From a virus, in IMG/VR virus record IMGVR_UViG_3300000255_000004, positions 737 to 42,109 of that record: a stretch of 41,373 nucleotides of DNA; one strand, given 5' to 3'. The number at the start of each line of letters is the position of its first letter. The first letter of the stretch is position 1. The notes under the pieces are model-generated. The model was given only the letters and a program-made list of their open reading frames with translations. It had not been told where the DNA came from and did not search any database. The position numbers were made by a program, and so were the translations under genes. Positions 1,161 through 40,140 of the stretch are shown piece by piece.

Positions 1161-1166
1161 TGTGGG

Positions 1167-2018: not shown

Positions 2019-2022
2019 AAAT

Positions 2023-2463: not shown

Positions 2464-2465
2464 AT

Positions 2466-22190: not shown

Positions 22191-24756
22191 TAATTATAAT
22201 AATATAACTAAAGTATTACGTACTGATTCATTTGATGATTGGAAAGATAAAACTAATTTAATATTAGAAGATTTAATAATATTAGAACAATCGTTTGGGA
22301 ATTGGAATCATCTACGAACTGATATTGGTAGATTCAGTGATATAGTAGATAATAATATCGTATCTGTTATAAATGAGTTAGATACCCATATTGATGAAAA
22401 TAACCAAAGTATTGTTGATATTCTAGCTAGAATATCAACATCATTTAGTAATATTGGATTATTGGATGATGGGACATATAATTCTGGTGAAAAAAATGTA
22501 TACGCTAATTCTGATATAATATTTCATGATATTAATTTATTAGATACGCAAGTAGAACTTAATCGTGCCAATATACATACTAATAAAATAAATATTAATT
22601 TAAATAGTACTAATTTTGTTAATTTAATAACTAAAGAATTAGGATTAGTTGAATCAAAATATGAAGCGTTACGTGAATATTCATCAAAAAATGGTATATT
22701 ACAAAGAACTACAATAACGGATGATATTAAATATTTAAAATCAATAACAGAAGACAATGCTGAAAGTATAATAGATAATACTGAGGAATTTAGAAAAGAA
22801 TTTGCTGAACATGATATTCTTATCACTAAAAATAAGATTAATATATCACGTAATGATGACAAATTACTTACATATTTACCACAGATTGGTCTTAGTTCAA
22901 GTGGTATATATACATCATTGAATAATACAGATGACAGTATTGCAGATGATATTATATATTTAAATGGATTAATTAGTGATAATTATAATAGTATTGTTGA
23001 TAATACAGAAGAATTTAGAAAAACCTTTTTGGATGTGCGTCGTTCTATAGAAGTTAATAAAAATAATATATCACATAATGATACAAAGTTGATTAGATAT
23101 TTATTATATATTGGACTTGATGAAGAAGGTGTATATACATCATTGAATAATACAGATAATAGTATTGCAGATGATATTATATTATTGAAAAATATGATAC
23201 AGACTGAAGATAATGTTCGTGGTATAGCTGATCAGGATATTCACAATTTAATTGAATTAAAAGAGATTGATATATCTACTAATACAAGATATATTACCAC
23301 ATTAGACAATACGTTTAATAGTACTATGACATCTGCTTTAGGATTGGGGAATTTAATTTATAATCCTATTGATTCTAATGGACATAATACAATAACGGAT
23401 GATATTAAATATTTAAAATCAATAATAGATAACGAAGAAACTGAACGTGAAAGTAATATAGAATCTGTTTATAATTTGATTGCGTTAAAGAATGATATTA
23501 TTAATAGTAATATCAATGATATTAAAGATGTTAATAATATTATTGATACTATGCAATCGTATACTGGACTTCTTAGTAATGGTACGTATGAATCTTCTAA
23601 TATTAATACTCATGCTGTAACAAATAATATAAAACACGATATTGATGCATTAGACATTAAAGTCAGTTCAATTGACACTGATTTAGAAAATAATAGACAA
23701 TCTTTTAGTTCCAAATTTATATCTTTTGAACAAAGGTTTGATGATAGATCAAACGGATTAGGTGGTAGAATAGTTTCCGAGGGGTTCCCGAATCCAGATT
23801 CAACTGTTGCTTTGCCGAATTATAATAGAACACCGTTAGAGGGTGATATATGGTATACTGTCGGGGGTAAAGCAACAAGATCTACCGTACAAGATGAATC
23901 AGCTCATATGACTGAACCAGATGTTCGTAGTTTTTATGCGGAAACTAACAAACATGGTGTTATTAAAGTTGGAGATAGATTAAATATAAGTAGTGAGGGG
24001 GTGTTGAGTGCTGAGGAAGTATTACATCCACCACACCCAGCTGGAATACATGCCCCAAGTCCAAGTTCTAATGATACAGATAAAGTATTAACGGCAACTG
24101 GTGATGGAACAATCGTATGGAAAGATCCAGATATCGCCACTCTGTCAGCGACAGAAGAAATCCTAGCAGCTGCCATAAATGAAATGGGTAAAAAGATATA
24201 TCCTATTGGATCTATATATACTAATGCTAATGATGATAACAACCCATCACTATTGTTGGGGTTTGGAACGTGGGAGAGTTTTGGAAGAAATAAATTCTTA
24301 TTGCCAATAAATCCAAATGGTGGAAGTAAGGTAACTGGTGGTAGAGGAATGGAAGTGGATCTTACTACACACGGACTTGTGGGTGGTAATTTTTATAATA
24401 AAATAACTATTTCGAATTTACCAAGTCATGATCACTTGTTTGCTGGGGATAGCGAATTAAAAGTTAATGGTATGCAAAATGGTATATCGGAACAGTTCCC
24501 ATGGACATATGGCGGTGCCTGTGTTATGAATGACGGGACTGAAAGGGATTTGGATGAATTCACATGTACAAGAGAAATAAACGGTAAACGAGCCATTGAA
24601 TGGAAAGACAAGACTTCATCATTTTCATATACTTCCCACGCACATTCATATCATGGTACATCTATTTTTTATAATACTTCAAGTAGAGGTGGCGGAGAAC
24701 AGATACCAAACATGCCGCCGTATATAACAGTATATATGTGGAGACGGGTGTCGTAA
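22177..24756 (+). CDS. Tail fibre with fibritin-like repeats and tail-collar C-terminus
   Basis: An 859-residue fibre protein. Residues 1-65 form an N-terminal domain (RTDSFDDWKDKTN, FGNWNHLRTD, VINELD) shared with the fibre gene at 25299, likely its attachment end. Residues about 90-505 hold six coiled-coil units of the form IGL..G.Y.S......I..DI..L, similar to the segmented coiled coil of T4 fibritin (wac). A short beta region with KHGVIKVGDRLNISSEGVLS (about 589-608) follows. The C-terminal domain starts YPIGSIYTNANDDNNP (about 675) and contains LLGFGTWESFG, PSHDH and the closing NMPPYITVYMWRR, a tail-collar pattern found in many phage receptor-binding fibres. GGAG 7 bases upstream supports the start. 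It could be the short tail fibre or a collar whisker; the C-terminus favours receptor binding. Confidence 0.85.
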   Translation: MAITDNYNNITKVLRTDSFDDWKDKTNLILEDLIILEQSFGNWNHLRTDIGRFSDIVDNNIVSVINELDTHIDENNQSIVDILARISTSFSNIGLLDDGTYNSGEKNVYANSDIIFHDINLLDTQVELNRANIHTNKININLNSTNFVNLITKELGLVESKYEALREYSSKNGILQRTTITDDIKYLKSITEDNAESIIDNTEEFRKEFAEHDILITKNKINISRNDDKLLTYLPQIGLSSSGIYTSLNNTDDSIADDIIYLNGLISDNYNSIVDNTEEFRKTFLDVRRSIEVNKNNISHNDTKLIRYLLYIGLDEEGVYTSLNNTDNSIADDIILLKNMIQTEDNVRGIADQDIHNLIELKEIDISTNTRYITTLDNTFNSTMTSALGLGNLIYNPIDSNGHNTITDDIKYLKSIIDNEETERESNIESVYNLIALKNDIINSNINDIKDVNNIIDTMQSYTGLLSNGTYESSNINTHAVTNNIKHDIDALDIKVSSIDTDLENNRQSFSSKFISFEQRFDDRSNGLGGRIVSEGFPNPDSTVALPNYNRTPLEGDIWYTVGGKATRSTVQDESAHMTEPDVRSFYAETNKHGVIKVGDRLNISSEGVLSAEEVLHPPHPAGIHAPSPSSNDTDKVLTATGDGTIVWKDPDIATLSATEEILAAAINEMGKKIYPIGSIYTNANDDNNPSLLLGFGTWESFGRNKFLLPINPNGGSKVTGGRGMEVDLTTHGLVGGNFYNKITISNLPSHDHLFAGDSELKVNGMQNGISEQFPWTYGGACVMNDGTERDLDEFTCTREINGKRAIEWKDKTSSFSYTSHAHSYHGTSIFYNTSSRGGGEQIPNMPPYITVYMWRRVS
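22711..22746 (+). repeat. 36-base direct repeat in fibre gene, copy 1 of 2
   Basis: Identical 36-base segment, encoding TITDDIKYLKSI, found again at 23389-23424, 678 bases downstream. It is the most conserved part of two of the six coiled-coil units. Confidence 0.85.
23389..23424 (+). repeat. 36-base direct repeat in fibre gene, copy 2 of 2
   Basis: Second identical copy of the segment at 22711-22746. Another pair of similar stretches (TSLNNTD.SIADDII) lies around 22907 and 23132, 225 bases apart, that is 75 codons. Confidence 0.85.
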
Positions 24757-25302
24757 ATGACTTTATTTATAACGGACAAATCTCAATCAATATTGCCATC
24801 GATTTATGATGAATTTGGATCGGATTATACAGATTATACTACGGATGATATTCCACCGTTTACTAGTAACATCCACCATATAGTTAATGACGTATCAGTA
24901 AGACAATTTCAGGAGTGGAAGACCGCTCATGAAATATTTATTTTTCATAATGATGAGTGGCGATCTACTTTATATGAAGACAAAACCTATACCCTTTACA
25001 GTAACCCCCGTGTTAAACAAGAGGGGGTTTACTACGTTCCACCAGGTGTATACCGTTTAGATGTAACTATAACAGGAAGACATGATAGGATGGAAGTTAT
25101 CGGGGGAGGTTACATTGATCACGACGGAAGTAGTTTAGAATTTGATTCACGAAATGACACTAACGGCGAAGTTACATACTCTGGTGTGTCAGTTACACCG
25201 TACACACACATTAAATATACCATGGAAAGGAGCTCGATTATGGTTGGGACAAGATCCTTAACTATTAAACAATTACCGAAAATATTAGAGGCAGTCGTAT
25301 GA
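24757..25302 (+). CDS. Unrecognised 181-residue protein between two fibre genes
   Basis: Not recognised. The ATG directly follows the TAA of the fibre gene with no gap, and the TGA overlaps the ATG of the next fibre gene (ATGA), so it is locked between two fibres in one translation unit. The N-terminal third is rich in acidic and aromatic residues. The middle has a motif YYVPPGVYRLDVTITG (about 92-107) then GGGYIDHDGSS, suggesting a beta-sandwich or a short beta-helix turn. No signal peptide, membrane segment or catalytic motif is evident. Position suggests a fibre connector, a fibre tip protein or a folding chaperone; none is supported by sequence. A GC-rich inverted repeat (25001-25032) lies inside it. 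Confidence 0.8.
   Translation: MTLFITDKSQSILPSIYDEFGSDYTDYTTDDIPPFTSNIHHIVNDVSVRQFQEWKTAHEIFIFHNDEWRSTLYEDKTYTLYSNPRVKQEGVYYVPPGVYRLDVTITGRHDRMEVIGGGYIDHDGSSLEFDSRNDTNGEVTYSGVSVTPYTHIKYTMERSSIMVGTRSLTIKQLPKILEAVV
25001..25032 (+). repeat. GC-rich inverted repeat (hairpin) inside coding sequence
   Basis: GTAACCCCC (25001-25009) pairs with GGGGGTTTAC (25023-25032) with one bulged T, giving a 9-bp stem and 13-base loop. Runs of five C and five G are rare in this AT-rich window. No T tract follows, so it is not a typical terminator. Confidence 0.6.
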
Positions 25303-27452
25303 TAAACGTAAAATATCCGTCACTATCAACAATTAATAAGACAGACACTTTTGATGGGTGGAGGCAAAAAAATAACGTGCAGAAGGATCATTCTGAATAT
25401 ATAGAACTTATATTTGGAGATTGGGATGTTTTAAGAACAAGTGTAAAAGACAACATGGTGGGGTCTATTAATGAAACATATGAATATGCATACCAGAATG
25501 ATTTAAATATACAGAAATTAACTGAGAGACAAGATAATGCGTTTATAAATGTTGGGTTGTCAGAAGATGGTGATTATACATCCGGCCAAAGGTTTTATGG
25601 TACCGCTAATAATATTAAATTAGATATTGATTTAATAGATTTTCGATTGAATTCTGTTGATGTGTTCTTACATGATTTAAATGGTAGATATGTTAGTACT
25701 GTTGATCATATTGAGGTGATGCGTGATAATATAGGATTGGATGTTGGTGGAGTATACACATCCGATCATTGGGGTTCTAATACATATGCTATTTCAGATA
25801 ATATTGGTAATGATATACATGATTTAGATTATAATCTGAAGTTATTAAATACTAGACATGATAAAGAATTTAAATTTCTTGAAACCTATATAATTAAAGT
25901 TGAGAATTATTCATTCGATTTAAATGACAGACATATTAATACTCTTAATCATATTGGAGTAATGCGTGATAATATAGGATTGGATGATGATGGTATATAC
26001 ATTTCTAATTCTAGTAATGTGTATGCTATTTCAGATAATATTGGTAATGATATAAACTATTTGGATAAAGATTTAAAATCATTAAATGATAGACATGATG
26101 GGGAAATTACTCTTCTTCAAAATAATATTAATAGAGTTGAAACGTATGCATTCGATTTAAATGACAGACATATTAATAGTCTTAATCATATTGGAGTGAT
26201 GAGTGATAATATAGGATTGTCTGATACGGGGGTATACACATCGGATCATTGGGGTTCTAATACATATGCTATTTCAGATAATATTGGTAATGATATACAT
26301 GATTTAGATTATAATTTAAAGTTATTAAATACTAGACATGATAAAGAATTAGATATTGCTAGAACTAGAAGAAATGTTATTGAAACTTATGCATTTGATT
26401 TAAATGATAGATATGTTGGTACTCTTAATCATATTGATGTGATACGTGATAATATAGGGTTGTCTGATGTGGGGGTATATACATCATATAACAATAATGT
26501 ATATGCAACTGGAAATGTTATAAGTTCTGATATTAATTTATTAGATATGAAATTAAAGTCATTTAAAGACGAATATGAAATTACGGTAGATGGTGTATAT
26601 GAATCTAAGTTTATCGATTTATTTTCTACTAGACAAGACGATAGAGATTTCACGGCAGCTATTGAAGATAGAATAACAAAAACACAGATATCATTAGGCA
26701 TTTCTGAGGATGGTGGATATACTTCCCACCCACTTAATGAATCTGCTAAAACTAACAATGTAAGAAGTGATATAACTGCGTTAGATGATAGGTTACAGTT
26801 TCTTAAAGATGATATTGATACCTTAATACAAACACATACTCATATAGTAAGTTGGTCAAATCTCACAGATAAACCAAATATTGATAATATGATAGACACC
26901 GCCATTCGTGATAATACATTTGAGAGTGGAACTACCATGGTATTTTATCAATCTAGTCCACCTAATGGGTGGCATTTGGTAACGACTGACACGGATATTA
27001 ATGGAAACAAGACTTCAGTTAATGACACTCTATTACGTGTTATGCAAAATAATGAGTCGGGTGGTACTATTAGGGGGGATACATATGCATCAAATGTGTT
27101 TAATCATGATCATCCACACACATTAAAAGTCAATGGTACTACTGATGGACATACTTTAAGTATTAATGAAATGCCAAGTCACGAACATTCTGATTCCAAT
27201 TCTTTTAATGCTACTGGCGGAACAGCTGTTGTTTATAACTATGCTCATGGTGGATGGTGGTATCATCATTGGAGGAATTATTACTATATGCAGCAAGTTG
27301 CTACAGGGACTAGTACCAATAGTGCTGGAGCATATCAAGGTGGTGGTGGATCCCATTATCATAGTTTAAGTAATGTTGGATTGACAGGTAGTATATCTAA
27401 TTCATCAATTTCACCTAAATATAGTAATATGATATTATGTAGGAGAGATTAG
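25299..27452 (+). CDS. Tail fibre with near-identical fibritin-like repeats and His-rich tip
   Basis: A 717-residue fibre protein. The start overlaps the previous stop (ATGA) and has GAGG (25288-25291) 7 bases upstream. Residues 1-60 resemble the N-terminus of the fibre at 22177 (KTDTFDGWRQKNN, FGDWDVLRTS, VGSINE). Six coiled-coil units follow, of the form IGL..G.YTS......I..DI..LD. The middle four are strongly alike, with DLNDRH, LNHI.VM.DNIGL and NTYAISDNIGNDI, about 80 residues each. The tip starts TMVFYQSSPPNGWHLV (about 546) and carries NHDHPH, PSHEHS and GSHYHS. It ends SPKYSNMILCRRD, as in tail-collar and gp12-like receptor-binding tips. The HxH motifs could bind metal ions as in T4 gp37. 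The protein is probably a trimeric receptor-binding fibre paired with the earlier one. Confidence 0.85.
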   Translation: MINVKYPSLSTINKTDTFDGWRQKNNVQKDHSEYIELIFGDWDVLRTSVKDNMVGSINETYEYAYQNDLNIQKLTERQDNAFINVGLSEDGDYTSGQRFYGTANNIKLDIDLIDFRLNSVDVFLHDLNGRYVSTVDHIEVMRDNIGLDVGGVYTSDHWGSNTYAISDNIGNDIHDLDYNLKLLNTRHDKEFKFLETYIIKVENYSFDLNDRHINTLNHIGVMRDNIGLDDDGIYISNSSNVYAISDNIGNDINYLDKDLKSLNDRHDGEITLLQNNINRVETYAFDLNDRHINSLNHIGVMSDNIGLSDTGVYTSDHWGSNTYAISDNIGNDIHDLDYNLKLLNTRHDKELDIARTRRNVIETYAFDLNDRYVGTLNHIDVIRDNIGLSDVGVYTSYNNNVYATGNVISSDINLLDMKLKSFKDEYEITVDGVYESKFIDLFSTRQDDRDFTAAIEDRITKTQISLGISEDGGYTSHPLNESAKTNNVRSDITALDDRLQFLKDDIDTLIQTHTHIVSWSNLTDKPNIDNMIDTAIRDNTFESGTTMVFYQSSPPNGWHLVTTDTDINGNKTSVNDTLLRVMQNNESGGTIRGDTYASNVFNHDHPHTLKVNGTTDGHTLSINEMPSHEHSDSNSFNATGGTAVVYNYAHGGWWYHHWRNYYYMQQVATGTSTNSAGAYQGGGGSHYHSLSNVGLTGSISNSSISPKYSNMILCRRD
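25761..25870 (+). repeat. 110-base near-identical direct repeat, copy 1
   Basis: Matches 26241-26350 at 107 of 110 positions by direct reading, exactly 480 bases apart (two 80-codon units). It encodes SDHWGSNTYAISDNIGNDI and the following coiled coil. Confidence 0.9.
26241..26350 (+). repeat. 110-base near-identical direct repeat, copy 2
   Basis: Second copy of 25761-25870. The three differences are silent or conservative (a tcc/tcg Ser codon and a ctg/tta Leu codon). Confidence 0.9.
27441..27447 (+). promoter_or_regulatory. Ribosome binding site deciding a GTG start
   Basis: AGGAGAG ends 6 bases before the GTG at 27454, which lies one base after the TAG of the fibre gene. No ATG in the same frame lies nearby. 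Confidence 0.65.
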
Positions 27453-27762: not shown

Positions 27763-30105
27763 ATGCCACATATTAGCGGATTAACAGGTGGGGGTACTAC
27801 GATTGAAGTATCTGCCCTACATAATTATGGGATATCACGACAGCGTAGTGGGTTTAGTAGTTTCACAGAGGAAGCTGTATTTGGTGACATTGATATGATG
27901 CAAGTAGGTTCTGGTTTATTGCACGCTCTTGCCACCGATTTAACACGTGTATGGCCATTGTATTATGGAACTCAAATCCCACTAAATACTGCTGCTGAAG
28001 TACAAATAACAAAATCATTTTTTAGTGAAGTGAATATAAATGATGTGAAGTATACGGGTAGTGCTAATTATTGTGACAGTAATTTTGGTAATCTATTAGG
28101 TTCTAATAAATATCAACACGTTCTTTTAGTAGAAACTACCAATGAAATAGAACCGAATGCCAAAGTTAATAGTGGTATTTCTCAGAAATATAGAATTAGG
28201 TTTGAATTTGATGAAAGAGAACGATTATATAGTCAAGATCCTGAATTTAAAAGAGAATTATTTCAGTTAAATAGACGTAGACAAAATAAAGGATTGACAA
28301 TATATGCTACTGGTAATAAAGTAAATGAAGTTGATTTAGATCTTTATGGTAATAATGTTATAGGTGATGATTATACCGAATCTATGGAAGGACATCCAGG
28401 ATATCGTTGGATGGGTGCAGTTGATTCTGGGGTGGTTGCTCCTGGCTCACAACCGGATGTTAATGATTCTGATGATTGGTATTTGGGAGAAACATTAAGA
28501 AAGACATTTAAAATCAATGGTAAGTTAAGTGGGAATGATTCTGTTAGGATACAAGTATCATCAATAAAACAGAACGTAGGTTATGATTTATTGATGGATC
28601 ATACATCAACATTAGTTACTTGTGTTTCATCTAGTGGTGATGGTGATGTTGATGCTTCGGCTGAGACAATTGTTTCTGCATTAAATAATGATGATACTTT
28701 TAAATTATATTTTACTGCTTCTACCGATAGTGTAATGGGTAATAGAATTTATATTGAAAATCAAGTTCCATATACATCGGTTCATGTTACTGTAGAATAT
28801 GTTCCTGATCCGAATGGTGGCAGTACTATTGCTGGATACGCAGCGACTGCGGAACTGTTAGATGATGTGGATGGTGCAGTCACAGGGACGGTGTCTCCTG
28901 GTTGGGCATCATATGGTGTGACAGGCAGGACAGGTTTCCAAAATGGTTATGTTGGTATACCAAACCCAATGTATGGGTGGTTAAAGGTAAATATTGCAAC
29001 TTCATTGCAATTGACGGATTCTGGCAGCATAGTGATGTCAGAATCTGTTACATTTGATGAGTTATCACATGCTGGTGGCGGTGTTTATGTTGATGGGTCG
29101 GTTTTTAGAAGTCCAGGAGAATTGGTTGATATTAATTTCGAAGATAATATATTCCCATATATAAACGAAGAAGGCGGATCTCAATTAACAATAAAAGCTA
29201 GAAATAAACGAAAATTGCCTGGGTGGTTTAAACGATTTCCAAAACTAATAGATGGTGGTGCGTATCCGATGTCATATAGATTAACAATTACGGAACGTGG
29301 TATTGGTTTTTCTATATGGGATGATGCAGGGGTCGATCAAAACGATGATTATGCATGGTTTGTTTCTCAACGACTTGTTGATAATTATACTGGACAGACT
29401 AGGAGAGATCCTATATCTAATTTTCCAGTACATTGTTTATATTCTTGTTCAAGGGAGTCATTATATCCAAGTGATTTTGGAATATATTATTCTAGTGCTG
29501 CCTTGGATAGTCACGTTCCTGGTAGTCAACTGACACAAGTGCATAGATTGGGTGGGGAATCAATTGCAATCGGGTCGGATGCGTTTAGAAGTTCAACAAG
29601 TGGACAAAATGCTATAATATTATCTATACTTGATAGAGAGGATTATCTGCAAGAAGAAGAGTTATCAAAGAAAATATGGAGATTTGTTGTACGTGAATAT
29701 GACACATTTAAACCATGGGATGTTCATAAATCTGCGACTAGACATCAGACAGATAGTAATGCGGTGATAAACCCAATGGAACAATTAGCAATAACAGATG
29801 ATAATAGGTTTGTTATAACATTTCCAACTGGATTAACTACTCAAAGAGTTATGTATCCTAAAGAAGAAATTGATATGGTATGTTTTTCTTCTGCCGAAGT
29901 TGTTGCAGAAGGTTCAACAGTACCAATGAGTTCATATAATAGCGGAGCTGTTACAAATACTACCAATGAAACAGGAGAAGATCATCGTAGATATTATGGG
30001 TTAAGATCGACATTACCAAATAGTAAGGGGATGCGAGTATGCATGTTAGTATCTGGTGATTGGATATTTAATACTGATGTGAATCTAGATGTACATGGAA
30101 CTTAA
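27763..30105 (+). CDS. Virion structural protein, short paralogue of the giant neighbour
   Basis: A 780-residue protein that I do not recognise by name. The N-terminal part (SALHNYGISRQRSGF, GLLHALATDLTRVWPLYYG, EFDERERLYSQDPEF) and the block GIPNPMYGWLKVN (about 399-411) followed by LVDINFED (454-461) recur in the next gene. So does the C-terminal ~300 residues from RNKRKLPGWFKRFP (480) through PMSYRLTITERGIGF, FPVHCLYSC, KIWRFVVREYD and GMRVCML. Residues about 220-395 are an extra domain absent from the neighbour (FKINGKLSGNDSVRIQVSS, YIENQVPYTSVHVTVEY). AAGGA (27752-27756) lies 6 bases before the ATG. A peripheral baseplate or fibre-base component fits the context. Confidence 0.82.
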   Translation: MPHISGLTGGGTTIEVSALHNYGISRQRSGFSSFTEEAVFGDIDMMQVGSGLLHALATDLTRVWPLYYGTQIPLNTAAEVQITKSFFSEVNINDVKYTGSANYCDSNFGNLLGSNKYQHVLLVETTNEIEPNAKVNSGISQKYRIRFEFDERERLYSQDPEFKRELFQLNRRRQNKGLTIYATGNKVNEVDLDLYGNNVIGDDYTESMEGHPGYRWMGAVDSGVVAPGSQPDVNDSDDWYLGETLRKTFKINGKLSGNDSVRIQVSSIKQNVGYDLLMDHTSTLVTCVSSSGDGDVDASAETIVSALNNDDTFKLYFTASTDSVMGNRIYIENQVPYTSVHVTVEYVPDPNGGSTIAGYAATAELLDDVDGAVTGTVSPGWASYGVTGRTGFQNGYVGIPNPMYGWLKVNIATSLQLTDSGSIVMSESVTFDELSHAGGGVYVDGSVFRSPGELVDINFEDNIFPYINEEGGSQLTIKARNKRKLPGWFKRFPKLIDGGAYPMSYRLTITERGIGFSIWDDAGVDQNDDYAWFVSQRLVDNYTGQTRRDPISNFPVHCLYSCSRESLYPSDFGIYYSSAALDSHVPGSQLTQVHRLGGESIAIGSDAFRSSTSGQNAIILSILDREDYLQEEELSKKIWRFVVREYDTFKPWDVHKSATRHQTDSNAVINPMEQLAITDDNRFVITFPTGLTTQRVMYPKEEIDMVCFSSAEVVAEGSTVPMSSYNSGAVTNTTNETGEDHRRYYGLRSTLPNSKGMRVCMLVSGDWIFNTDVNLDVHGT

Positions 30106-30111
30106 TCCTAT

Positions 30112-33100
30112 ATGTCTGTATTTAATAATAATACAATATCACTTGATGAATTAACTCATTATGGTATATCAAATTCAAATAATGGATATGTAAGTGTTTC
30201 ATCACTGTTAATATCTTTAGTCGATGATTTGACTAAAGATTGGCAGATGTATAATGGTAATAAAGAAGAAGGTAATGAATTACGAAATATTGAAGATGAT
30301 ACTTTAATAACAAAGAAATATTTCAATCTAATATATCCAGCAACTGGATATGACGGTACTGCCAATTTTACTAATATTGTTGACGGTGACTTTAAACAAC
30401 ATGTTATTGTCTTAGAATCTACAGATGAAATGATGTTCGGTCAAGTCTGGCGAATGCGATTAGAATTTGATGAAAGAGAACGTTTATATTTCGATGATGT
30501 AGAATTCACGGAAGAACTATATCAATTAAATCTCAAATTAGATTCCGTATTATATACAACCTATGAACTTGGTAATGTGGTATCTGATAGCAAATACAAA
30601 TCAAAAGAAAAAATAACAAATCATCCAGGATATACTTTTGACGACACTTTAACAGAGTCGTGGGAAATTAATGTCGGCATACCAAATCCAATGTACGGTT
30701 GGTTAAAAGTTAATAATGCAACGGCTTCACAATTATATAATGATGGGACTATTGGTGGTATTTATGATTATAGAGAAATCTCTAGAACACATGGACAGTT
30801 AGTAGATGTAATATATGAAGATATTTTATCATATAGACAGCCATCAACTAAAGTTAATGTGGCTCTTACTGTTGATGGGATATTACACGGAGAATCTTCA
30901 TACAATATTAATGGGGATATATTAACATTAGTTAAATCTCAACCAGACGGTGCAATAATACAGGTCAGATACGAGTCATCATTAATTGAAGATACTATAA
31001 CTGATACATTCACAAGTAATGGTGAAACAACAACATTCACATTAACAGAAAGTATATTATTAGATGAAATAAAACCAATTGCAGACACTATATATATGAT
31101 GGACACAACTGTTGCTGCAGGAAGTACTGTTGATTTTGATATTACCAATATATATAACAATAAAATAATACCATATATACAGAAATATGTATATAATGTA
31201 TTAGATAATAAAGGGTGGGAATCAATTGTAGAGGGGGAGTGGGTATATAATTCTGAATTAATAGAGTTTGTCGACGGTGGTATTAAATTAATACCCAATA
31301 TTGAAACTGTTACAGAACAACAAGAATCAATTGTTACTACTACATGGGATTTCCAAAATTCAGATGAATGGACATCATTAGATGATAAGATTGAAATTAT
31401 AAATGGTTCTATTCAATTAAAAACAGAATTAATAGAACATATGTATGCTGAATTGCAGTTGTTACCATCAACTCCTTTTAATTGGACATTTGATGACACT
31501 AATGATTGGATATATGATACCCAGAATATAGAATTTAATGATGGTACTGTTAAATTAAAACCAAGTATAACAAATATATATGAATCTCAATATGTTCCTA
31601 GAATCAATACATCATGGGATTTTAATGATGAAAATAAATGGAATTATAATACTGAATTATTAGTATTTAATAATGGAGTAGTGAAGTTAAATGGTACCTT
31701 GATAAATGTACTTGGAGAACAAGATGTTTTATCCGATGTAACATTTGATTTTAATGATAATGTACTGTGGACTAAATCTGCTGAAATGGATGTTGTGGAC
31801 GGCGTTGTCAAACTTAAAGGTGTTACAAACACAGTAACAGATTATATATATAATTCCACTCCCATTGCTTTTGATATGAGTGATGTTTCGGTTTATTATA
31901 ATGCAGACTTAATAGATCAATCTGATGATGGAATATCAATAAAGTTACAACCCACATATACTCCACAAGATACTATTGTAGACAACTTACAATGGAATAT
32001 ATTTGATGATAATATGTATTCCATTGTAAATTCTGAAAATAAATCATTAAATGTTGAAAATAATACACTGTCTACTACAACTACTTTTCATCCGAGAGTT
32101 CCAGCAATATATGGAATACCAGCAACCGCAAAAATACGACAACTTGATTCAGGAAATGGATTCCATACATGTTTAATGGATAGTGGAGAATTGTATGTTC
32201 AAGGTGTTAACAATGACGGTCAGTTAGGATTAGGACATACTGATGAGGTGACCGAGTGGATGTTATCTCTTTCTAATATACGTAAAGTTGTATGTGGAGA
32301 TAGTCATTTATTGGCAATAGGATTAAACAATAAATTATATGCAACTGGAAACAATACATGGTGTCAACTTGGAAAGGATTTTGGATTTGATACGAATGAT
32401 GTAGGTGATAAATCGTATTATTCTATTGATAATTGGAGATTAAGTCATGATGGACCTATAAAAGATGTATGGGCTGGTGGGAATTCTAGTATTATAAGTT
32501 TGGCAGGACAAACAGCTAATACCATGTACTGGTCTGGTGAAAACAGAGATAATCAATTATCAGTTTCAAAATCGCATGATAGAAAGTCATGGTGGTCAGG
32601 TGTCGATCAAGAATACAAATATAGAGAATTTGTTACTGGTGGTTGGTTGAGTTGGGACAGTAATTGTCGTGGGATTTACTCAGATGACCCAGATTATATA
32701 TCTCTTAGTAATGATGTAAGTAATCCGGCGACTTGGTGGTTAGGAACTATTAAAGGATACCAAGAAATATTTAGAATGGGGAAAACTCATACACATACGT
32801 ATAGAAAAAATAAAGATTCTAATAATCAAAATATACCATTCAGTGATTATTTTAAAATAGATAAAAGTGATAGATCTTTAGAGGATTTAACAGAAAACGA
32901 ACCTATATTGTTTATGTCTGGATCGTCCGATGATGTAATAGTTGGTCACAATACAAAAGGTATTAGTTGGAGATTGGCAAATAGGTATAAGTCAGAAGTC
33001 TTGTATGATGTGGCAACTACAAGATATCTTCAAAAAACATATGAACATGTGTCTATTGACAACGGTATTACTTCAACCGGTAATACAGTAAGTACATATA

Positions 33101-36100
33101 AAGGAATCGCAGCATTTAAAAATGCATCTTTAAAAAACGCTCCATTTGCAACTTATTGGAATAATGTTACAAAGCCACCAACACAACATTCACAAAGTCA
33201 GAGTGCAGAGTCGTTCAACGCATCGCGCACATACACCTTTGAAGTTAGCTTTACTAATCCTACTGTGTTGTCTGGATTAATTTTTAAGTATGATTTGAAA
33301 GACACGTATAAAGTATCACCGGTGTATACTCCACACGGGGGTAATAATTCTACGTGGTATATTTATGGGAAGGATGGCAATACATTCTCCGCCAAGCAAA
33401 CCGGATATTTTTTAAGATATGATGTAAAAAGAGTCGTTGATAGATCGTATTCTGTATCTACTAGTGGTGTATGGACCGGTAAATTTCGTAAAAAGACTAT
33501 ATACAATTGTGGTTGGAAATACTGTTATGTCAGCTACAACGTTAATTACGGTAATCAAACGTGTCCAGCGGTTGATTCGAATGGTTACCAGACAGGTGGG
33601 ACTATCGTCGGTAATAGTTCTTGGAAATCTTGCGGTCGATCACATGGAGTTAAGGAGTATGGATACGATTTCTATAAGACTGCAAAAACAGATGCTGGTG
33701 TATATAATTTGAAAAATGGCACTTACTCTAGGCATCCGTATTCATTTCTTTATACTTATAGTGACACTAGGACTAGTGTTACTACAACTATAAGGACATG
33801 GGAACATGTGGTTGAGTTAAAGTGGGATAATATTAATGCTCATAAGACATTTCACATTGAAACTATGACAGGATTGGATTTAAGCAAAGTAAGTAATAAT
33901 TCCTCACAGATAAAGGAAATAGTTGGAGTTATAACTAAAGGTGGTTATCACATAGATACATCATATGACCCAGTAGAATGCATTAAGTCATCATCATTAT
34001 ATAATGTTATTATATATAAATCGGGGAAGATAGAACTAAGAGATAAGAACAATCCTAACGATATATCTTATACAGGAACATCTGTGGGTGAGTCTGTGGA
34101 ATATATTGGAAATTATGTGAGTGTTGGTAAAGATAGTATAATGTGGTACAATTCAACTGATACTAACTTTAAATTACAAACAACTAACTTAGTTGATGTT
34201 GATACGCCAATGTATGTTTATCCTGAATATACTGCACCAGTACCAGAATATGTAGACTATGATACTTCATTAACTGTTGAATCAATATCCCCAATATCAA
34301 TGGGATCCGGGGATCATCAAGAGTTATTTACTGATGAATTTATTATAACATTAGAACCAAATGAATCTATCGATGTAACATTATCTCATGATCATAATGA
34401 CTATCTTGGACAACTTTTAACACAAGTTAGTGTAATGAATCCAGTAGAAACGTCTACAACATGGGGTGGTATTGGTGTATTGGATACTACTAGTTTTGAT
34501 AAAACAAATGGTATAGCGGGGGTGTTAAATAGATTACAGTTAGATAGAGATACAAGTAATGAGTCTACCTTTCAATTAACAAATGTGGTTGATATATCAT
34601 GTGGGGATAGTCATTGTCTTGCTCTATTGGACACTGGTGAAGTATATGGTATTGGTGACAATTCAAAGTTACAGTTAGGTGGTTTAAGCGAAGGCGGGTC
34701 GTACAATGAGTGGACGAAATTGGATATTAGAGTTGCTGCAGAGGATCCCGCTCTTATTGCAAAAGATGTGGTATGTGGTTATAATAGAAGTGCGATAATA
34801 TTAGAAAATGATGATTTATTGGTTTGTGGAGAACGTGGTCTTGACTACATGGGTGTAGGACAAGAAATATGGTTGGAGGAAGAGGGTACTGGCAACCCAT
34901 GGGTTGCTGTTGGAAAGGAAATTCCTAATATATTTTGGCGATTCAGTAGTATATCAAATGTGAAATCAATAGCTTTTGGTAAGCGTTTTTCCATGGTGGT
35001 GAAACATGATGGTACTGTATGGGCTACTGGATCCGGCAATCATTTGGGCACGACTTCAACTGGTAGAAGATCTAGTAGAGATTGGGTTCAATCTAATATA
35101 ACAGCAGTAGACTATGTAATATGTGGAGATCATTATGCCATATCTGTTAAATCTGACGGAACAATGTACGTTACCGGTGCTGACAATCCTGGTTATGGAA
35201 CACATTTTTTACCAGTGTGGACGAACGCTGGAGGTTTAAGTTCTATGGGTGTTTCAGGATACGAGTTCAACATGAATTGGTATGAGATGTCGGGTACTTT
35301 TGGTCCTAGTACGTTAGCAAAGGTAGTATGTGGCAAAGAACACACAATGACATTAGGAACTGATGGGTTTGTACGAGGTACTGGTCAAAAAATAGGTTCT
35401 AGTTCTAGAGGACAATTAGGATACCCCATAGGGGTATCCCCATTAAATGGTTCTTCTAGTACCCGCGGGTGGGGATTGCTGGGGTTTGTACTTTCAGATA
35501 TAACAGATGTAATAGACATAGAATGTGGTGCATATTCTACTTATGCTCTTAAGAAGGATGGTAGCATATGGGCATGTGGTTGGAATACCACTGGTGAGTT
35601 GGGGGTTGGAAACAATATCGAAATACACTATGGACCAAATCTCTGGCGTAGAATAAGTGTTGAAAGTTCCTTGCTTGGAACCATAGGGTTGCCGATAGGG
35701 TCATATAATGGTAAATTAAACTACATCAGTATTGATCATATGTTTACTGACGATACTCACAATAATCTTATTACTAAAATATATTTTGCACATCCTATTC
35801 CTAATTTAAGACGAATATATGTTTTATTTAATGGTGTATTACAAAAGAAAACAGGATATAGTTTTGAAGATGTTCCTCCTGGGTTAACCCATCAAGTTGA
35901 CGGTGTTGATGTTCCAGTAGAATATATTTTAGTAGTAGAAGGTTACTATCCGTGGTTCAACTCATCAACTCCGATAGAGATATATGAATACTCCTTTATA
36001 TCTCCTGGTGATTATTTTAATTATTGGTTAGTGGCAAATGACCGTGATAGATCTCGTTTTGCATCTGACCCACTGGATGTAAAGGGATTGTTAGATGGTT

Positions 36101-39100
36101 TCTGTCAACTCGGAGTTGGACCTTCTGATAATAGTAATAATGTTGCCATTTTGTATGCAGGGATTTCGGGGATTTCAAACGGCGAGGGCGTCAGTAAATT
36201 TGTTTTTACTGGGGGTATTACTGGAACATATAATCCATATTATTTGTCTGGTATAACCGAATCTACTCAATCCATATTACTAGATAATGTTTTTTATATT
36301 GAATCATTATCGTTTATTGAGGAAATTAAACCAACTAATACTAATATAAAATATGCCCTGTCGTTTGATAATGGATATACATGGAATACTCCAACAAATT
36401 CTGATATTGATATAACCACCCATGGTGTAGATGCAGATGTTATAATGGATTATGATTTTAATACGATTCCGTCATCAGCGACAACGTTAGACATACAGAT
36501 GTATTTTACTACGGAAGATGACGATATTACACCAAGTGTTCGTGATATTAAGTTTAACGTAAAACCTTTTACATTTTCACAAAAACAAAATATTTTGGGG
36601 GATGATGTAACGTTAATAACAAGTGGAACTAATATTGTCTCAATAAAAAATAATACTATTCATAAAGAATCATATAAGATAATTACATCTTATATAACAC
36701 AACAAGTTTCAGATGTGACACGCAGTGTGCCGACATCTATTGTAATAGATGATACAGTTCCTGACGGCACTACTATATTATATAGTTTAAGTTTTGATAA
36801 TAAAGACAACTGGACAACTGCGAATAATTCCACTGATATGAATACTTTTGATTTTACTAGTTATACAGTTGATGATATATATCTTAAAATTACGATGACG
36901 GCAACTGGCGATGTAACTCCAACGATTAATTTAATATCACTTAAACTGACTAATACTTTAGATGTCTTTGTCAAAGATATATATCCTAGTGAAACTATAA
37001 TAGGGATTAAAAAAACGGGAATAAGTAGTCTGTTAAATACCGATAATCTTAATGATGTGAGAGATATATCAATCAATGCAACAACCCCAACTGGTACTAG
37101 TATAGAATATTATGGAGATTTTTCTACTGATCCTACAACTCAACAACCAATTTCTACCGCCAGTAATTTATCACCAGTAGTTGTAAATGGTGATACATTT
37201 TATTTAATTATAAAACTCAAAACGACTGATGATGCTATAACTCCAACCATTGAAAATGTGTCATTTGATTTACATGAGAAAGACGTTCCATATATACATG
37301 ATGTAGATATATACAGTACTGATCCTAATATTGTTAATAATATGAGTTATGTTCCAATAGATGTATCTAAAATCACTTCTATTGAACACGTTGTATTGAC
37401 ACATGATATACCAGATAATACTTCTATAAAATTTAAAATTGACATAGATGGTGTTGAATCAACATATGATACTGTTGAAATGTTTTCTTATTATTTAAAA
37501 AGTGATACATTTATTGCTGATATTTCGGGTAAAACTGAGATGATAATTGGCATAGAGTTATCATCAACGTCTGAAAGAATAAGTCCGTCAATATCATCTA
37601 TGATATTAAATATTAATGAATCTTATGATATTATTGTAAGCACACATATTGATTATAAAACGAATGGAGTTATGTATACCAATAATACCATTGACATATT
37701 AGATATGTCATCCATTGAAAGTGTTTTGATTAATGAACATAATCCATTAGAAACCGATGTCAGATATTCAGTATCATTTGATGGTAAAGATACTTGGGAA
37801 CACGGCAACGGTAGTGATTTCACTGGCGGTTATAGTTTATCTGAATTGAATAACTTTTTAGTAGGAAGTGATATAGAAAATAAGAATAATCTTGACATTG
37901 CTATTTGTTTAATTAGTAGTGATGATGGTACAATTAGTCCAAGTGTATCTTCTTTAATATTAAATATGACTGAAAAATTTAATATTATTATTAATACACC
38001 AACATCATATCCAGAACATGGATATGTGCAGACAAATATATCTATATCTTTACATGATATAGAATCAATTGATAATGTTATTGTTGATGAAACTGTACCA
38101 TTAACTACTGATATAAAATATGTCATTTCTACCGACTCTAGAAATGATTGGGTTACTCAATCAGGATCAGTTAATGTATCACAAATATCCAATGTTATTA
38201 ATAATGGTATGACTTCTACTGAATTTATAACTTATTTAAAATCATCTGATTTTAAAAATGTGTTAGGTACGGATAATGGACAGACATTAGATATTATGGC
38301 TGTGCTTATTAGTCATGATAACATTTATACTCCATCATTGTTTGGTATAACATTAGAAGTTAGTAAAATGACACAAGTTGTAGAAAGTACGACAATAGAA
38401 TATGACACATTAAGTGCCGACAATTATATAACTTCTGATGCAATTCCATTGTCAAGTGCATATATAATATCAATTGATAGCATAGTAATTGATGAAACTA
38501 TACCAACGGGTACTAGTATAAAGTATGGGGTTTCTACCAATGGTACTGATTTCGTATATAGAAACGATTCGAATGAATTATCTTCTTATATAACTGGATT
38601 GTCAATAAATAATATAGAATCTTTATATATTCAATTAAATATATCAACTACTGATACTGGACTCACACCTTTTGTGAATTCAATAACGTTGAATTCGACA
38701 GATTCAAGAGAGGTTGTGATTGACTCGGTAGAAACATATAATACTAATAATAGTAGTAGTATTATATCTGATTTTATATTATTGGATGATAGACCGTCTA
38801 GTGATGAGTATACGATTGGTGTTCACAAAATAAAAACAATTACAATTAATGAAACTAAACCTACTGGTACAGATATAAAGTATTCTGCAAAATTTAGTGA
38901 AAATGGTTCGTGGGAAATATCTACTGGTGATATATCTGATGTTGAGTATGGACACTCTTCTGATGACTTTAAAACTTGGATAGAAAATAAAGATTTTGAT
39001 GGAATAAACACTATGTCTATTGGGATACATTTAATGTCAAATGATGACGGTACGGCAACACCAAGTGTTGGTTCAATCATATTAGATATATTAGATATTG

Positions 39101-40140
39101 GCGAATATGTATCTATAAATAATGGTGTAGATGATACATTTGATTTGTTTATGTCTGGCACCAATAAGGTATCTTTAAAAAACAATGAAATAATAGATAA
39201 TAAATATAACATAGAAGTGAAATATTATGAGCCATATAATATTGATAGATCATATAGAGTAAGAAATAAGAGAAGAGGGAGAGGTTGGTTTAAACGATAT
39301 CCTAAAAACATACCAGATATATCAGGAACATATCCAATGTCATATAGATTAACTATGACTAATCATGGAATGGGATTATATATTGGACACGAAACCTTAT
39401 CGGTGGATTCTAATGATTCATCTTGGTTTTCGGTGCAGTTGACTGTAGATAATATTACTGGACTACCTATAACGGGTGGTAATTATGTATTTGATACTCA
39501 TCCTGTTCATTGTTTATATTCTTGTACTGATGAACATATATATCCGGCAGATTATGGTATATATTATTCAGAATCTTCTCGTAATTTACAAACTTTTGAT
39601 TCTGAAATAACAGAATTGCAAGATTCTTATGGAAATTCATATTCATTATCAGAAACGGGGATTTTAAATACATCTGGTAATGTGGTTTCATTAGTATATA
39701 AACCAGATTTAGAAGATACGTTAATTTCTGATTCGATGGAACCTAAAATCTGGAGATATGTTGTCAGAGAAAGTGATATGGAAACCCCGTGGAATATTCA
39801 TATTTTGGCAACCAAAAATAATGTTGATAGTGATGCCATAATCAACAGCTTGGAACAACAGGTTATAACCAAAGACAACAAGTACATAATCAATTTTCCA
39901 TCCAATTTAACAGGCACTCGGTGTGTTTACCCAAACGAAGATTTGGATATTTTTGCGTATACTTCAGCATCGGTTGTGTCTGAGAGTAGTATTGAACCGA
40001 TTGTCCGTTATAAGTATGATGGTACGAATGATGACACTCGGCATTACGTTGGGTTGAAATCATTGTCACACGGCAACGGAATGCGGATACTTATGTTGAG
40101 TAATTCGGTGTATATACTCAACAGCGATATAAATATATAG
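30112..40140 (+). CDS. Giant 3342-residue virion protein with RCC1-like propeller and Ig-like repeats
   Basis: The largest gene of the window, an uninterrupted frame. Residues 1-237 and 3051-3342 match the preceding 780-residue protein (EFDERERLYFDDVEF, GIPNPMYGWLKVN, LVDVIYED; then GWFKRYP, PMSYRLTMTNHGMGL, HPVHCLYSCT). Between them lie about 2,813 residues. In order these are short repeats with a W-x-F...W...G-x-v-K-L pattern (about 364-657), three RCC1-like repeats (674-830), an insertion with four cysteines and a beta-rich region (830-1490), six more RCC1-like repeats (1490-1836), a linker, and eight Ig-like repeats (about 2057-2997). RCC1 folds are seven-bladed propellers best known from eukaryotes but also found in bacteria. 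Here it is probably a display or binding module on the tail. No signal peptide, membrane segment or enzyme motif was found. No ribosome binding site is evident. It starts six bases after the previous gene. Confidence 0.85.
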   Translation: MSVFNNNTISLDELTHYGISNSNNGYVSVSSLLISLVDDLTKDWQMYNGNKEEGNELRNIEDDTLITKKYFNLIYPATGYDGTANFTNIVDGDFKQHVIVLESTDEMMFGQVWRMRLEFDERERLYFDDVEFTEELYQLNLKLDSVLYTTYELGNVVSDSKYKSKEKITNHPGYTFDDTLTESWEINVGIPNPMYGWLKVNNATASQLYNDGTIGGIYDYREISRTHGQLVDVIYEDILSYRQPSTKVNVALTVDGILHGESSYNINGDILTLVKSQPDGAIIQVRYESSLIEDTITDTFTSNGETTTFTLTESILLDEIKPIADTIYMMDTTVAAGSTVDFDITNIYNNKIIPYIQKYVYNVLDNKGWESIVEGEWVYNSELIEFVDGGIKLIPNIETVTEQQESIVTTTWDFQNSDEWTSLDDKIEIINGSIQLKTELIEHMYAELQLLPSTPFNWTFDDTNDWIYDTQNIEFNDGTVKLKPSITNIYESQYVPRINTSWDFNDENKWNYNTELLVFNNGVVKLNGTLINVLGEQDVLSDVTFDFNDNVLWTKSAEMDVVDGVVKLKGVTNTVTDYIYNSTPIAFDMSDVSVYYNADLIDQSDDGISIKLQPTYTPQDTIVDNLQWNIFDDNMYSIVNSENKSLNVENNTLSTTTTFHPRVPAIYGIPATAKIRQLDSGNGFHTCLMDSGELYVQGVNNDGQLGLGHTDEVTEWMLSLSNIRKVVCGDSHLLAIGLNNKLYATGNNTWCQLGKDFGFDTNDVGDKSYYSIDNWRLSHDGPIKDVWAGGNSSIISLAGQTANTMYWSGENRDNQLSVSKSHDRKSWWSGVDQEYKYREFVTGGWLSWDSNCRGIYSDDPDYISLSNDVSNPATWWLGTIKGYQEIFRMGKTHTHTYRKNKDSNNQNIPFSDYFKIDKSDRSLEDLTENEPILFMSGSSDDVIVGHNTKGISWRLANRYKSEVLYDVATTRYLQKTYEHVSIDNGITSTGNTVSTYKGIAAFKNASLKNAPFATYWNNVTKPPTQHSQSQSAESFNASRTYTFEVSFTNPTVLSGLIFKYDLKDTYKVSPVYTPHGGNNSTWYIYGKDGNTFSAKQTGYFLRYDVKRVVDRSYSVSTSGVWTGKFRKKTIYNCGWKYCYVSYNVNYGNQTCPAVDSNGYQTGGTIVGNSSWKSCGRSHGVKEYGYDFYKTAKTDAGVYNLKNGTYSRHPYSFLYTYSDTRTSVTTTIRTWEHVVELKWDNINAHKTFHIETMTGLDLSKVSNNSSQIKEIVGVITKGGYHIDTSYDPVECIKSSSLYNVIIYKSGKIELRDKNNPNDISYTGTSVGESVEYIGNYVSVGKDSIMWYNSTDTNFKLQTTNLVDVDTPMYVYPEYTAPVPEYVDYDTSLTVESISPISMGSGDHQELFTDEFIITLEPNESIDVTLSHDHNDYLGQLLTQVSVMNPVETSTTWGGIGVLDTTSFDKTNGIAGVLNRLQLDRDTSNESTFQLTNVVDISCGDSHCLALLDTGEVYGIGDNSKLQLGGLSEGGSYNEWTKLDIRVAAEDPALIAKDVVCGYNRSAIILENDDLLVCGERGLDYMGVGQEIWLEEEGTGNPWVAVGKEIPNIFWRFSSISNVKSIAFGKRFSMVVKHDGTVWATGSGNHLGTTSTGRRSSRDWVQSNITAVDYVICGDHYAISVKSDGTMYVTGADNPGYGTHFLPVWTNAGGLSSMGVSGYEFNMNWYEMSGTFGPSTLAKVVCGKEHTMTLGTDGFVRGTGQKIGSSSRGQLGYPIGVSPLNGSSSTRGWGLLGFVLSDITDVIDIECGAYSTYALKKDGSIWACGWNTTGELGVGNNIEIHYGPNLWRRISVESSLLGTIGLPIGSYNGKLNYISIDHMFTDDTHNNLITKIYFAHPIPNLRRIYVLFNGVLQKKTGYSFEDVPPGLTHQVDGVDVPVEYILVVEGYYPWFNSSTPIEIYEYSFISPGDYFNYWLVANDRDRSRFASDPLDVKGLLDGFCQLGVGPSDNSNNVAILYAGISGISNGEGVSKFVFTGGITGTYNPYYLSGITESTQSILLDNVFYIESLSFIEEIKPTNTNIKYALSFDNGYTWNTPTNSDIDITTHGVDADVIMDYDFNTIPSSATTLDIQMYFTTEDDDITPSVRDIKFNVKPFTFSQKQNILGDDVTLITSGTNIVSIKNNTIHKESYKIITSYITQQVSDVTRSVPTSIVIDDTVPDGTTILYSLSFDNKDNWTTANNSTDMNTFDFTSYTVDDIYLKITMTATGDVTPTINLISLKLTNTLDVFVKDIYPSETIIGIKKTGISSLLNTDNLNDVRDISINATTPTGTSIEYYGDFSTDPTTQQPISTASNLSPVVVNGDTFYLIIKLKTTDDAITPTIENVSFDLHEKDVPYIHDVDIYSTDPNIVNNMSYVPIDVSKITSIEHVVLTHDIPDNTSIKFKIDIDGVESTYDTVEMFSYYLKSDTFIADISGKTEMIIGIELSSTSERISPSISSMILNINESYDIIVSTHIDYKTNGVMYTNNTIDILDMSSIESVLINEHNPLETDVRYSVSFDGKDTWEHGNGSDFTGGYSLSELNNFLVGSDIENKNNLDIAICLISSDDGTISPSVSSLILNMTEKFNIIINTPTSYPEHGYVQTNISISLHDIESIDNVIVDETVPLTTDIKYVISTDSRNDWVTQSGSVNVSQISNVINNGMTSTEFITYLKSSDFKNVLGTDNGQTLDIMAVLISHDNIYTPSLFGITLEVSKMTQVVESTTIEYDTLSADNYITSDAIPLSSAYIISIDSIVIDETIPTGTSIKYGVSTNGTDFVYRNDSNELSSYITGLSINNIESLYIQLNISTTDTGLTPFVNSITLNSTDSREVVIDSVETYNTNNSSSIISDFILLDDRPSSDEYTIGVHKIKTITINETKPTGTDIKYSAKFSENGSWEISTGDISDVEYGHSSDDFKTWIENKDFDGINTMSIGIHLMSNDDGTATPSVGSIILDILDIGEYVSINNGVDDTFDLFMSGTNKVSLKNNEIIDNKYNIEVKYYEPYNIDRSYRVRNKRRGRGWFKRYPKNIPDISGTYPMSYRLTMTNHGMGLYIGHETLSVDSNDSSWFSVQLTVDNITGLPITGGNYVFDTHPVHCLYSCTDEHIYPADYGIYYSESSRNLQTFDSEITELQDSYGNSYSLSETGILNTSGNVVSLVYKPDLEDTLISDSMEPKIWRYVVRESDMETPWNIHILATKNNVDSDAIINSLEQQVITKDNKYIINFPSNLTGTRCVYPNEDLDIFAYTSASVVSESSIEPIVRYKYDGTNDDTRHYVGLKSLSHGNGMRILMLSNSVYILNSDINI
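31201..32080 (+). repeat. Short W/F-rich repeats in the giant protein
   Basis: Five to seven units of about 40-55 residues share a pattern like WDFNDENKWNYNTE followed by a hydrophobic strand and DG.VKLK. The clearest are at about 31330-31430, 31480-31580, 31610-31700 and 31735-31830. The last two of the run are degenerate. Confidence 0.7.
32131..35620 (+). other. RCC1-like repeat region, split by an insertion
   Basis: Nine repeats are visible by pattern (hydrophobic strand, CG..H..al..dG.ly..G.n..gQLG). The first three lie at 32131-32600 (GNGFHTCLMDSGELYVQG, VVCGDSHLLAIG, WAGGNSSIIS). The other six lie at about 34586-35620 (ISCGDSHCLALLDTGEVYG, VVCGYNRSAII, FGKRFSMVVKHDGTVWATG, VICGDHYAIS, VVCGKEHTMTLG, IECGAYSTYALKKDGSIWA). 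About 660 residues separate the groups and include two weak, degenerate repeat-like stretches near 33980-34150. Confidence 0.75.
35419..35439 (+). repeat. Perfect 9-bp inverted repeat with 3-base loop
   Basis: GGATACCCC, loop ATA, then GGGGTATCC. It lies in frame between the last two RCC1-like repeats. Two further palindromes follow within 31 bases (35440-35450 and ACCCGCGGGT at 35461-35470). Confidence 0.8.
36280..39100 (+). repeat. Eight Ig-like repeats in the giant protein
   Basis: Each unit of roughly 80-130 residues begins with a pattern like I.tI.I.ET.PTGT.IKY..SFDg...W and ends L.I...L.S.D...TPSV.SI.L. Clear starts are near 36300, 36730, 37060, 37380, 37715, 38065, 38480 and 38835. 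The protein match is good but the DNA differs between units, so the expansion is old. Confidence 0.75.
40128..40135 (+). promoter_or_regulatory. Candidate T4-type late promoter box, upstream copy
   Basis: Exact TATAAATA, overlapping the last codons and stop region of the giant gene, 54 bases before the next ATG at 40189. TATAAATA is the T4 late promoter -10 consensus. A chance match is possible in AT-rich DNA. Confidence 0.4.

Follow-up and report, generated by a model that had tools for sequence, protein, structure and literature searches.

A gene in the baseplate cluster of an uncultivated phage encodes a very large protein in which repeats of the RCC1 family, arranged in two separable groups, lie between terminal modules conserved among baseplate-cluster proteins, and the region that carries them changes faster than the ends of the protein. 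The gene is an open reading frame (ORF) of 3342 amino acids (aa) at positions 30112-40140, on the + strand, of a stretch of 41,373 nucleotides (positions 737 to 42,109 of the IMG/VR virus record IMGVR_UViG_3300000255_000004) that will be called the window; the entire finding is held by this ORF, which has a near-full-length homologue of 3398 aa at another viral locus, L004. The window covers most of the record of 42,109 bases, and the GC content is 33%. Upstream of the ORF there are matches to the T4 baseplate families gp5 (OB domain), gp25, gp6, gp8 and gp10 (C-terminal domain); the ORF itself lies among tail genes, and its end modules are conserved in tail-cluster proteins. The gene product would be a very large baseplate protein of a phage with a T4-like contractile tail. 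The architecture is true and unusual in a known kind of phage protein, and the fold is not new. In the reading favoured here, which as a whole we consider fairly probable, the segment between the end modules would be the projecting part of a baseplate fibre, acting as an exchangeable, exposed host-contact part; its weakest step is receptor contact specifically, instead of service as a docking platform.

The repeats belong to the RCC1 superfamily by their own sequence. A preliminary description of this DNA had read the ORF as a tail protein with nine RCC1-like repeats, starting at position 32131 and falling in groups of three and six separated by about 660 residues. Profile searches do return the family, with all matches exceeding curated Pfam cut-offs: PF25390 (RLD, the RCC1-like domain) at 2e-55, PF13540 in six stretches at 1.1e-32 and PF00415 in three stretches at 4.4e-15. 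Among the sequence matches of the RCC1 part in the PDB are UVR8, HERC1, RCC1 and RPGR. A hidden Markov model (HMM) of a single blade, of 38 positions and trained on as many as 77 repeats from other phages, places the repeat starts at residues 674, 721, (797), 1490, 1551, 1614, 1664, 1736 and 1797. Both the start (residue 674 is position 32131) and the length of the gap are thereby confirmed. Eight repeats score 8.1-41.7 bits and the third of group 1 scores -2.3 (0.9 bits in L004 and a -4.1-bit fragment in a second homologue, L009); this third repeat is nonetheless covered by the whole-domain models PF25390 (649-824) and phrog_7220 (676-824). Not one of 200 shuffles of residues 655-1853 contains a repeat of at least 8 bits (best shuffle 4.1 bits), against eight in the real sequence. 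The nine repeats in 3 + 6 groups therefore hold, and so does their location on a protein of the tail (baseplate) cluster, given the Pfam and PHROGs matches and a gene in the baseplate cluster whose modules are kept in relatives. Specifically, group 1 (32131..32565, +) comprises residues 674-709, 721-755 and ~784-818, the limits of the weak third blade being set by eye; the group 2 region (34447..35757, +; residues 1446-1882) contains six full repeats (1490-1834) and possible N- and C-terminal half blades, according to the blade HMM, alignments and a model as an RCC1-like propeller.

The two ends of the protein are the N-module (residues 1-261; 30112..30894, +), delimited by searches of viral loci and gene-order comparison, and the C-module (residues 3048-3342; 39253..40137, +), which is phrog_12249-like by PHROGs and homologue comparison and common to neighbouring genes. 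With residues 1-343 as query, 25 viral loci were found, and 18 of the 20 complete relevant frames measure 544-786 aa (the frames of L011, L012, L026 and L031 run off their contigs, and the frame picked at L024 is the upstream paralogue); the two long ones are L008, on the contig of L004, and L009. Gene order was compared in 14 of the 25 loci, and a frame carrying both modules is present in all 14. In the L010 protein (555 residues) the N-module match runs to residue 268 and that of the C-module from 259 onwards, so that the modules abut; in L013 the corresponding positions are 249 and 256 of 544. Both genes directly follow a relative of gene 27763-30105, as in the window, where this upstream paralogue (27763..30105, +; 780 aa) has N- and C-modules like those of ORF 30112-40140 and no RCC1 match by Pfam, PHROGs and comparison. 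Such a tandem pair occurs in three of the 14 loci (L009, L010 and L013). A single gene with both modules is found in ten of the 14, and its C-module is nearer to the upstream paralogue of the window than to the RCC1 gene; these ten genes may be counterparts of the paralogue. The insertion-free counterparts proper are those of L010 and L013. At L024 the genes shown are identical to those of the window, and only the upstream gene is present before the contig end.

The proteins of L010 and L013 share the gene position of the RCC1 gene, are about 50% identical to it in the N-module and 40-43% in the C-module, and differ from it by missing the entire RCC1 and repeat segment. As the modules abut in both, residues about 262-3047 (~2,790 residues) apparently are an extra segment at one junction between N- and C-modules. 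The second gene of the pair thus exists at about 550 aa (L010) and 544 aa (L013) without RCC1, 2481 aa in L009, 3342 aa in the window and 3398 aa in L004. Gain of the segment seems more likely than its loss. An RCC1 search of the relatives' records covered 20 of 25 loci, with L004 in place of L008 (L011, L012, L019, L021 and L025 left out), and found the repeats in two, the records of L004 and L009; likewise, viral-contig scans with the RCC1 segment matched the contigs of L004 and L009 only, in a search that may omit records lying very near the window, and the alignment is hence shallow. Among 50,697 named phage records, none matches the N-module at E up to 0.01. The C-module has 50 matches, including large Erwinia, Dickeya and Pseudomonas phages, and is common to window 27763-30105, window 30112-40140 and L004 18080-23128. 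Its PHROGs label, 'tail sheath' for phrog_12249, looks doubtful, because several paralogues per genome with variable middles are unlike a sheath protein.

The preliminary description had left two options for the repeats, namely one propeller with a domain looped out between blades, or two propellers. The homologues bear on this point. L004 has a layout equal to that of the window protein. The L009 protein matches window residues 1-984 and then again from 2219; in a global alignment the homology weakly extends through the insert that follows group 1, to about window residue 1396, and the blade HMM finds two clear blades and a weak third of group 1, and no repeat counterpart of the six-blade group. 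Group 1, which L009 keeps together with the insert, therefore does not need group 2. A single RCC1 propeller whose first three and last six blades are parted by a loop of residues ~830-1490 would agree with the membership of all repeats in one family and with the existence of split arrays (10 + 3 repeats with a 686-residue split at another locus, L074); in general, propellers are known to accept insertions between their blades. Yet L009 keeps group 1 and insert without the six-blade group, nine blades exceed the seven of RCC1, and in the model described below a whole RLD is spanned by the six-blade region and its flanks alone. One propeller with a looped-out domain is accordingly disfavoured, as L009 has group 1 without the six-blade group and the model of 1446-1882 alone matches complete RCC1-like domains; we hold it to be very unlikely, and this option of the earlier account was not borne out.

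Structure prediction, one of the checks named in the preliminary description, was applied to two regions. The model of residues 655-1853 (1199 residues, both groups), made from an alignment of three sequences, has a mean predicted local distance difference test (pLDDT) score of 25.1 and a predicted template modelling (pTM) score of 0.23, and is not usable. For the model of 1446-1882, 15 other phage RCC1 rows were aligned in addition to L004. Most of these rows stem from proteins in which the repeat occupies eight positions, read here as an N-terminal half blade, six full blades and a C-terminal half blade; the trimming of the rows was picked after inspecting four trial alignments, and this choice favours a clean register. 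The model has a mean pLDDT of 55.5 and a pTM of 0.65, with blade cores at about 70-90. Foldseek matches it to UVR8 at E 1.3e-18 (template modelling scores 0.51/0.60), and VIA-align to HERC2 RLD2 with Z 27.5 and a root-mean-square deviation of 3.7 A over 319 residues (model range 4-419); against viral models, the best match is an uncultured phage RCC1 protein at 5.3e-20. A propeller fold is thus found for group 2, and with RCC1 rows in the alignment and a mean pLDDT of 55.5 it is not independent of homology. Group 2 is likely a propeller of its own. Since RCC1 rows were supplied to the model, the six-blade region is to be taken as compatible with a whole RLD, with closure unproven: it has six full repeats, and the half blades at ~1450-1489 and ~1844-1880 come from a reading of the alignments and lie at pLDDT below 50.

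Of the two propellers, then, the second is likely and the first only a possible closed ring. Three points weaken even this picture: 210 of the 437 residues of the 1446-1882 model, both closing ends included, are at pLDDT below 50; the alignment of RCC1 rows would itself favour an RCC1 fold; and group 1 consists of three blades only, with no further blades found in 831-1396 and a model of both groups at pLDDT 25. In 831-1396, RCC1 scores from profile-profile comparison did not exceed those of column shuffles. Four candidate diverged blades (about 860-905, 932-975, 1285-1330 and 1330-1370) that would complete a first seven-blade ring around the insert looked good by eye, but their profile-profile probabilities are 0.0-0.2%, the level of shuffles, and they are not claimed.

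The pace of change was measured as the ratio of non-synonymous to synonymous rates (dN/dS) in a single pair, the window protein and L004. The ends (1-290 and 2981-3342) have a dN/dS of 0.08 (non-synonymous differences, Nd, 22; synonymous differences, Sd, 67), against 0.67 (Nd 173, Sd 69) in RCC1 and insert minus a hypervariable block (Fisher p 1.9e-14 versus the ends). By part, the ratio is 0.53 in the blade parts around group 1, 0.84 in group 2 and, at its highest in the codon comparison, 2.47 in residues 1854-2040 (35671..36231, +), a stretch without assigned family. The hypervariable block (residues 1085-1215; 33364..33756, +) lies in the insert after group 1 (residues 969-1287; 33016..33972, +), which has no significant RCC1, Pfam or PDB similarity and no match in the phage collection at E up to 1. 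In bins 1085-1211 of the block, 49 of 104 aligned residues are identical to L004, versus 88-92% in bins 985-1084 and 1262-1311. Over residues 1091-1215, its dN is 0.74 and its dS 1.63, with length changes. Because such values stand between flanks at dS 0.15 and 0.11, the block would most simply be a cassette replaced by recombination. Of a diversity-generating retroelement, neither RVT_1 (in the three records) nor a template repeat (in the window) was found; the records are fragments, and the block also differs in length. A discoidin (F5/8 type C)-like fold for the insert was considered from resemblance by eye only, has no Pfam or PDB match, and was set aside.

Several observations weigh against reading the segment as a host-contact part. 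Stretches outside RCC1 are also looser than the ends (dN/dS 0.54 in residues 291-640 and 0.76 in 2041-2980, which holds repeats of ~115 residues); that is, the looser regime spans the whole segment, and fast change is not special to RCC1. For residues 1486-2040 the bootstrap interval of dN/dS, 0.79-1.64, includes 1; positive selection is therefore unproven, and loss of constraint or mosaic recombination would suffice. Relaxed constraint is, in other words, indistinguishable here from positive selection. In addition, dS is uneven between regions (0.04-0.27 outside the block), which points to recombination confusing a one-pair dN/dS, and the hypervariable block has a dN/dS of its own of only 0.45. 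Finally, the segment might have been lost in L010 and L013 instead of gained in the others.

The favoured mechanism is as follows. The N-module (1-261) and C-module (3048-3342) would form a conserved body, bound to the baseplate to judge from the gene neighbours, and comparison with relatives shows the two modules as a complete ~550-aa protein at the same gene position. Where the two modules meet, a projecting segment of ~2,790 residues would have been gained. It contains the three-blade RCC1 group with the variable insert, a likely second RCC1-like propeller (1446-1882) that is self-sufficient, and the array of ~115-residue repeats. This segment may be exposed and exchangeable and may serve for binding, its partner most probably being a receptor on the host surface: the propellers would act as rigid display platforms, and the hypervariable block together with fast-changing 1486-2040 would be the contact sites. 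That the segment projects from the baseplate and that its variable parts touch the host is what we infer. The pattern of change, together with the tail-fibre/RCC1 fusions of one other contig, L071, would support putative host binding indirectly. A competing possibility is that the segment is exposed but serves as a spacer or as a platform on which other tail proteins dock. Protein docking is a frequent role of RCC1-like propellers, RPGR, HERC2 and BLIP-II complexes are among the structural matches of the group 2 model, and a C-module common to neighbours (27763-30105; L004 18080-23128) makes a multi-protein assembly plausible. A surface for the phage's own conserved partners would be expected to be conserved, yet change in the segment outpaces that of the ends and one of its blocks is a replaced one, and we regard docking without receptor binding as rather unlikely.

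The comparison with other phage proteins bears on host contact and on a further alternative, in which the repeats order or condense phage DNA. Group 2 matches 33 of the 50,697 phage records at E up to 1. Genome context was viewed for nine of them, of which ES-S-0173-01, without annotation, is left out of the eight counted. Tail, tail fibre, baseplate or structural gene names are nearby in five of the eight (LIBA6276, S-SRM01, SP-15, Serratia phage BF and XbC2); of the other three, Jenst has a 'cell adhesion protein' and PS6 and Munch are without such names, Munch having a long row of 'DNA condensation protein' genes. The known phage RCC1-like proteins (PHROGs 7220, 4219 and 16766; for example Clostridioides phage LIBA6276, Brevibacillus phage Jenst and Synechococcus phage S-SRM01) resemble the window protein in their RCC1 repeats and differ from it as separate genes, many of about 370-410 aa (the protein of LIBA6276 is longer, 1,627 aa); in Jenst gp140 and the L071 proteins, RCC1 is at one protein end. 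Among the other phage RCC1 proteins examined, none has its repeats placed between the two conserved modules of a protein from the baseplate cluster. In some metagenomic phage proteins the RCC1 repeats number 13-28, which is more than one propeller. The 1430-aa protein at L050 1656-5945 has 28, with room for about four propellers; in the 1487-aa protein at L074 4794-9254 the 10 + 3 split, with 686 residues between two repeat starts, parallels the split in the window. Six metagenomic RCC1 proteins were scanned for tail modules. Two L071 neighbours have tail-fibre stretches in mid-protein (phrog_7760 and phrog_9017; 313-413 and 409-492), followed by C-terminal RCC1; L050 and L074 give whole-protein tail matches with no stretch passing alone, and L058 and L068 no tail match. 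A tail-fibre stretch of its own is thus present in only two of the six, both from L071, which also counts against host contact. Among the genes near phage RCC1 genes, 12 of the 25 commonest of 136 matching PHROG families are tail, tail-fibre or minor-tail families, without a random control; the sample is 44 of 127 flanking frames, hand-picked for nearness and length, from 17 of 30 RCC1 loci, and one protein can match several families.

Virion RCC1-like proteins of large phages have been reported, and two papers connect them with DNA organisation or encapsidation (PMC7247149, PMC11370258). Phage phAPEC6 has eleven RCC1-like proteins, described as candidates for ordering DNA, and its structural proteome includes at least six 'DNA condensation' proteins (gp003, gp005, gp007, gp009, gp549 and gp551) (PMC7247149). 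RCC1-like protein 1 of GAP32 is structural by mass spectrometry according to the paper on phage CBB (PMC5259590), and in W70 three RCC1 proteins are found in virions, similar ones being suspected of aiding DNA encapsulation (PMC11370258). All of them share with the window protein the RCC1 family and are particle-associated by mass spectrometry; those of phAPEC6 and W70 differ as small separate proteins of about 30-43 kDa, which their authors discuss in terms of DNA organisation. In the accessible portions of the phAPEC6, GAP32 and W70 papers, no location in the particle is stated for them. In fEgEco12, seven gene products are less than 50% identical to those of a close relative, and the most divergent of these include two 'chromosome condensation regulators', which fits fast change (PMC13070987). 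Judged by titles and abstract openings, with subscription journals mostly outside this scope, no proposal of RCC1 propellers as phage receptor-binding parts was found among the papers listed; one apparent lead, PMC5723332, was discarded, as its 'RCC1' is a strain number, and another, PMC12648861, yielded no more than an abbreviation in a figure legend.

An ordering or condensing role, as suggested for RCC1-like proteins of a jumbo phage and of an rV5-like phage, can call on the candidate role proposed for phAPEC6 (PMC7247149), on the idea raised for the W70 virion proteins (PMC11370258) and on the PHROGs class of these RCC1 families, which is DNA, RNA and nucleotide metabolism. Against it, the repeats here are in one chain, flanked by modules of a baseplate-cluster protein; in L071 they are joined to tail-fibre modules, tail-fibre families are frequent among the matches of genes close to other phage RCC1 genes (the comparison being uncontrolled), and the phAPEC6 and W70 papers, in the parts available, offer no DNA-binding test. 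We judge this role highly improbable for the window protein. The repeat is known best from eukaryotes, whose RLD propellers (HERC2 RLD2 and RLD3, UVR8, RPGR and RCC1) share the sequence family and the fold of the group 2 model. Their roles are Ran exchange, ubiquitin ligation and UV-B sensing, for which no counterpart is shown in the phage protein; to our knowledge, neither Ran nor nucleosomes are to be expected in a bacterial host.

RCC1 groups built into a shorter baseplate protein, together with fast change, suggest that the RCC1 repeat may serve phages for contact with the host instead of DNA condensation, the role often given in annotations. Taken as a class, the RCC1-like proteins of phages could be outer, swappable host-recognition propellers of the tail, for which the label 'DNA condensation protein / regulator of chromosome condensation' would be wrong; the window protein would then exemplify the rule, its propellers being part of a baseplate-cluster protein in which they diversify. 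We see the chances of this wider claim as evenly balanced. The protein is worth following for its arrangement, its insertion-free counterparts and its pattern of change. Repeats that are tied to baseplate-cluster modules, missing from a same-position homologue and faster changing offer a concrete, testable alternative to DNA organisation, and the natural series of about 550, 2481, 3342 and 3398 aa is material for asking by what route entire propellers are added to a phage baseplate protein.

Two further repeat arrays of the segment are known by pattern only. Four ~45-residue repeats start at residues 412, 458, 502 and 545 (31345..31911, +), and about eight ~115-residue repeats occupy residues ~2050-2980 (36259..39051, +), presumably as a beta-sandwich stalk or decoration; in a Pfam scan of the latter, no family came close to its cut-off. 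Elsewhere in the window, 4396-12855 encodes a protein of 2819 aa that matches PHROG families of baseplate wedge and virion structural proteins; a baseplate wedge family of Pfam matches it too, below the cut-off. Two more genes, 22177-24756 and 25299-27452, are mutually related (about 26% identity over 500 residues), the former with the gp10 C-terminal domain. In the L004 gene (7835-18031), roughly 64 extra residues (protein ~90-152) are located at window residue 89, within an otherwise near-identical N-module.

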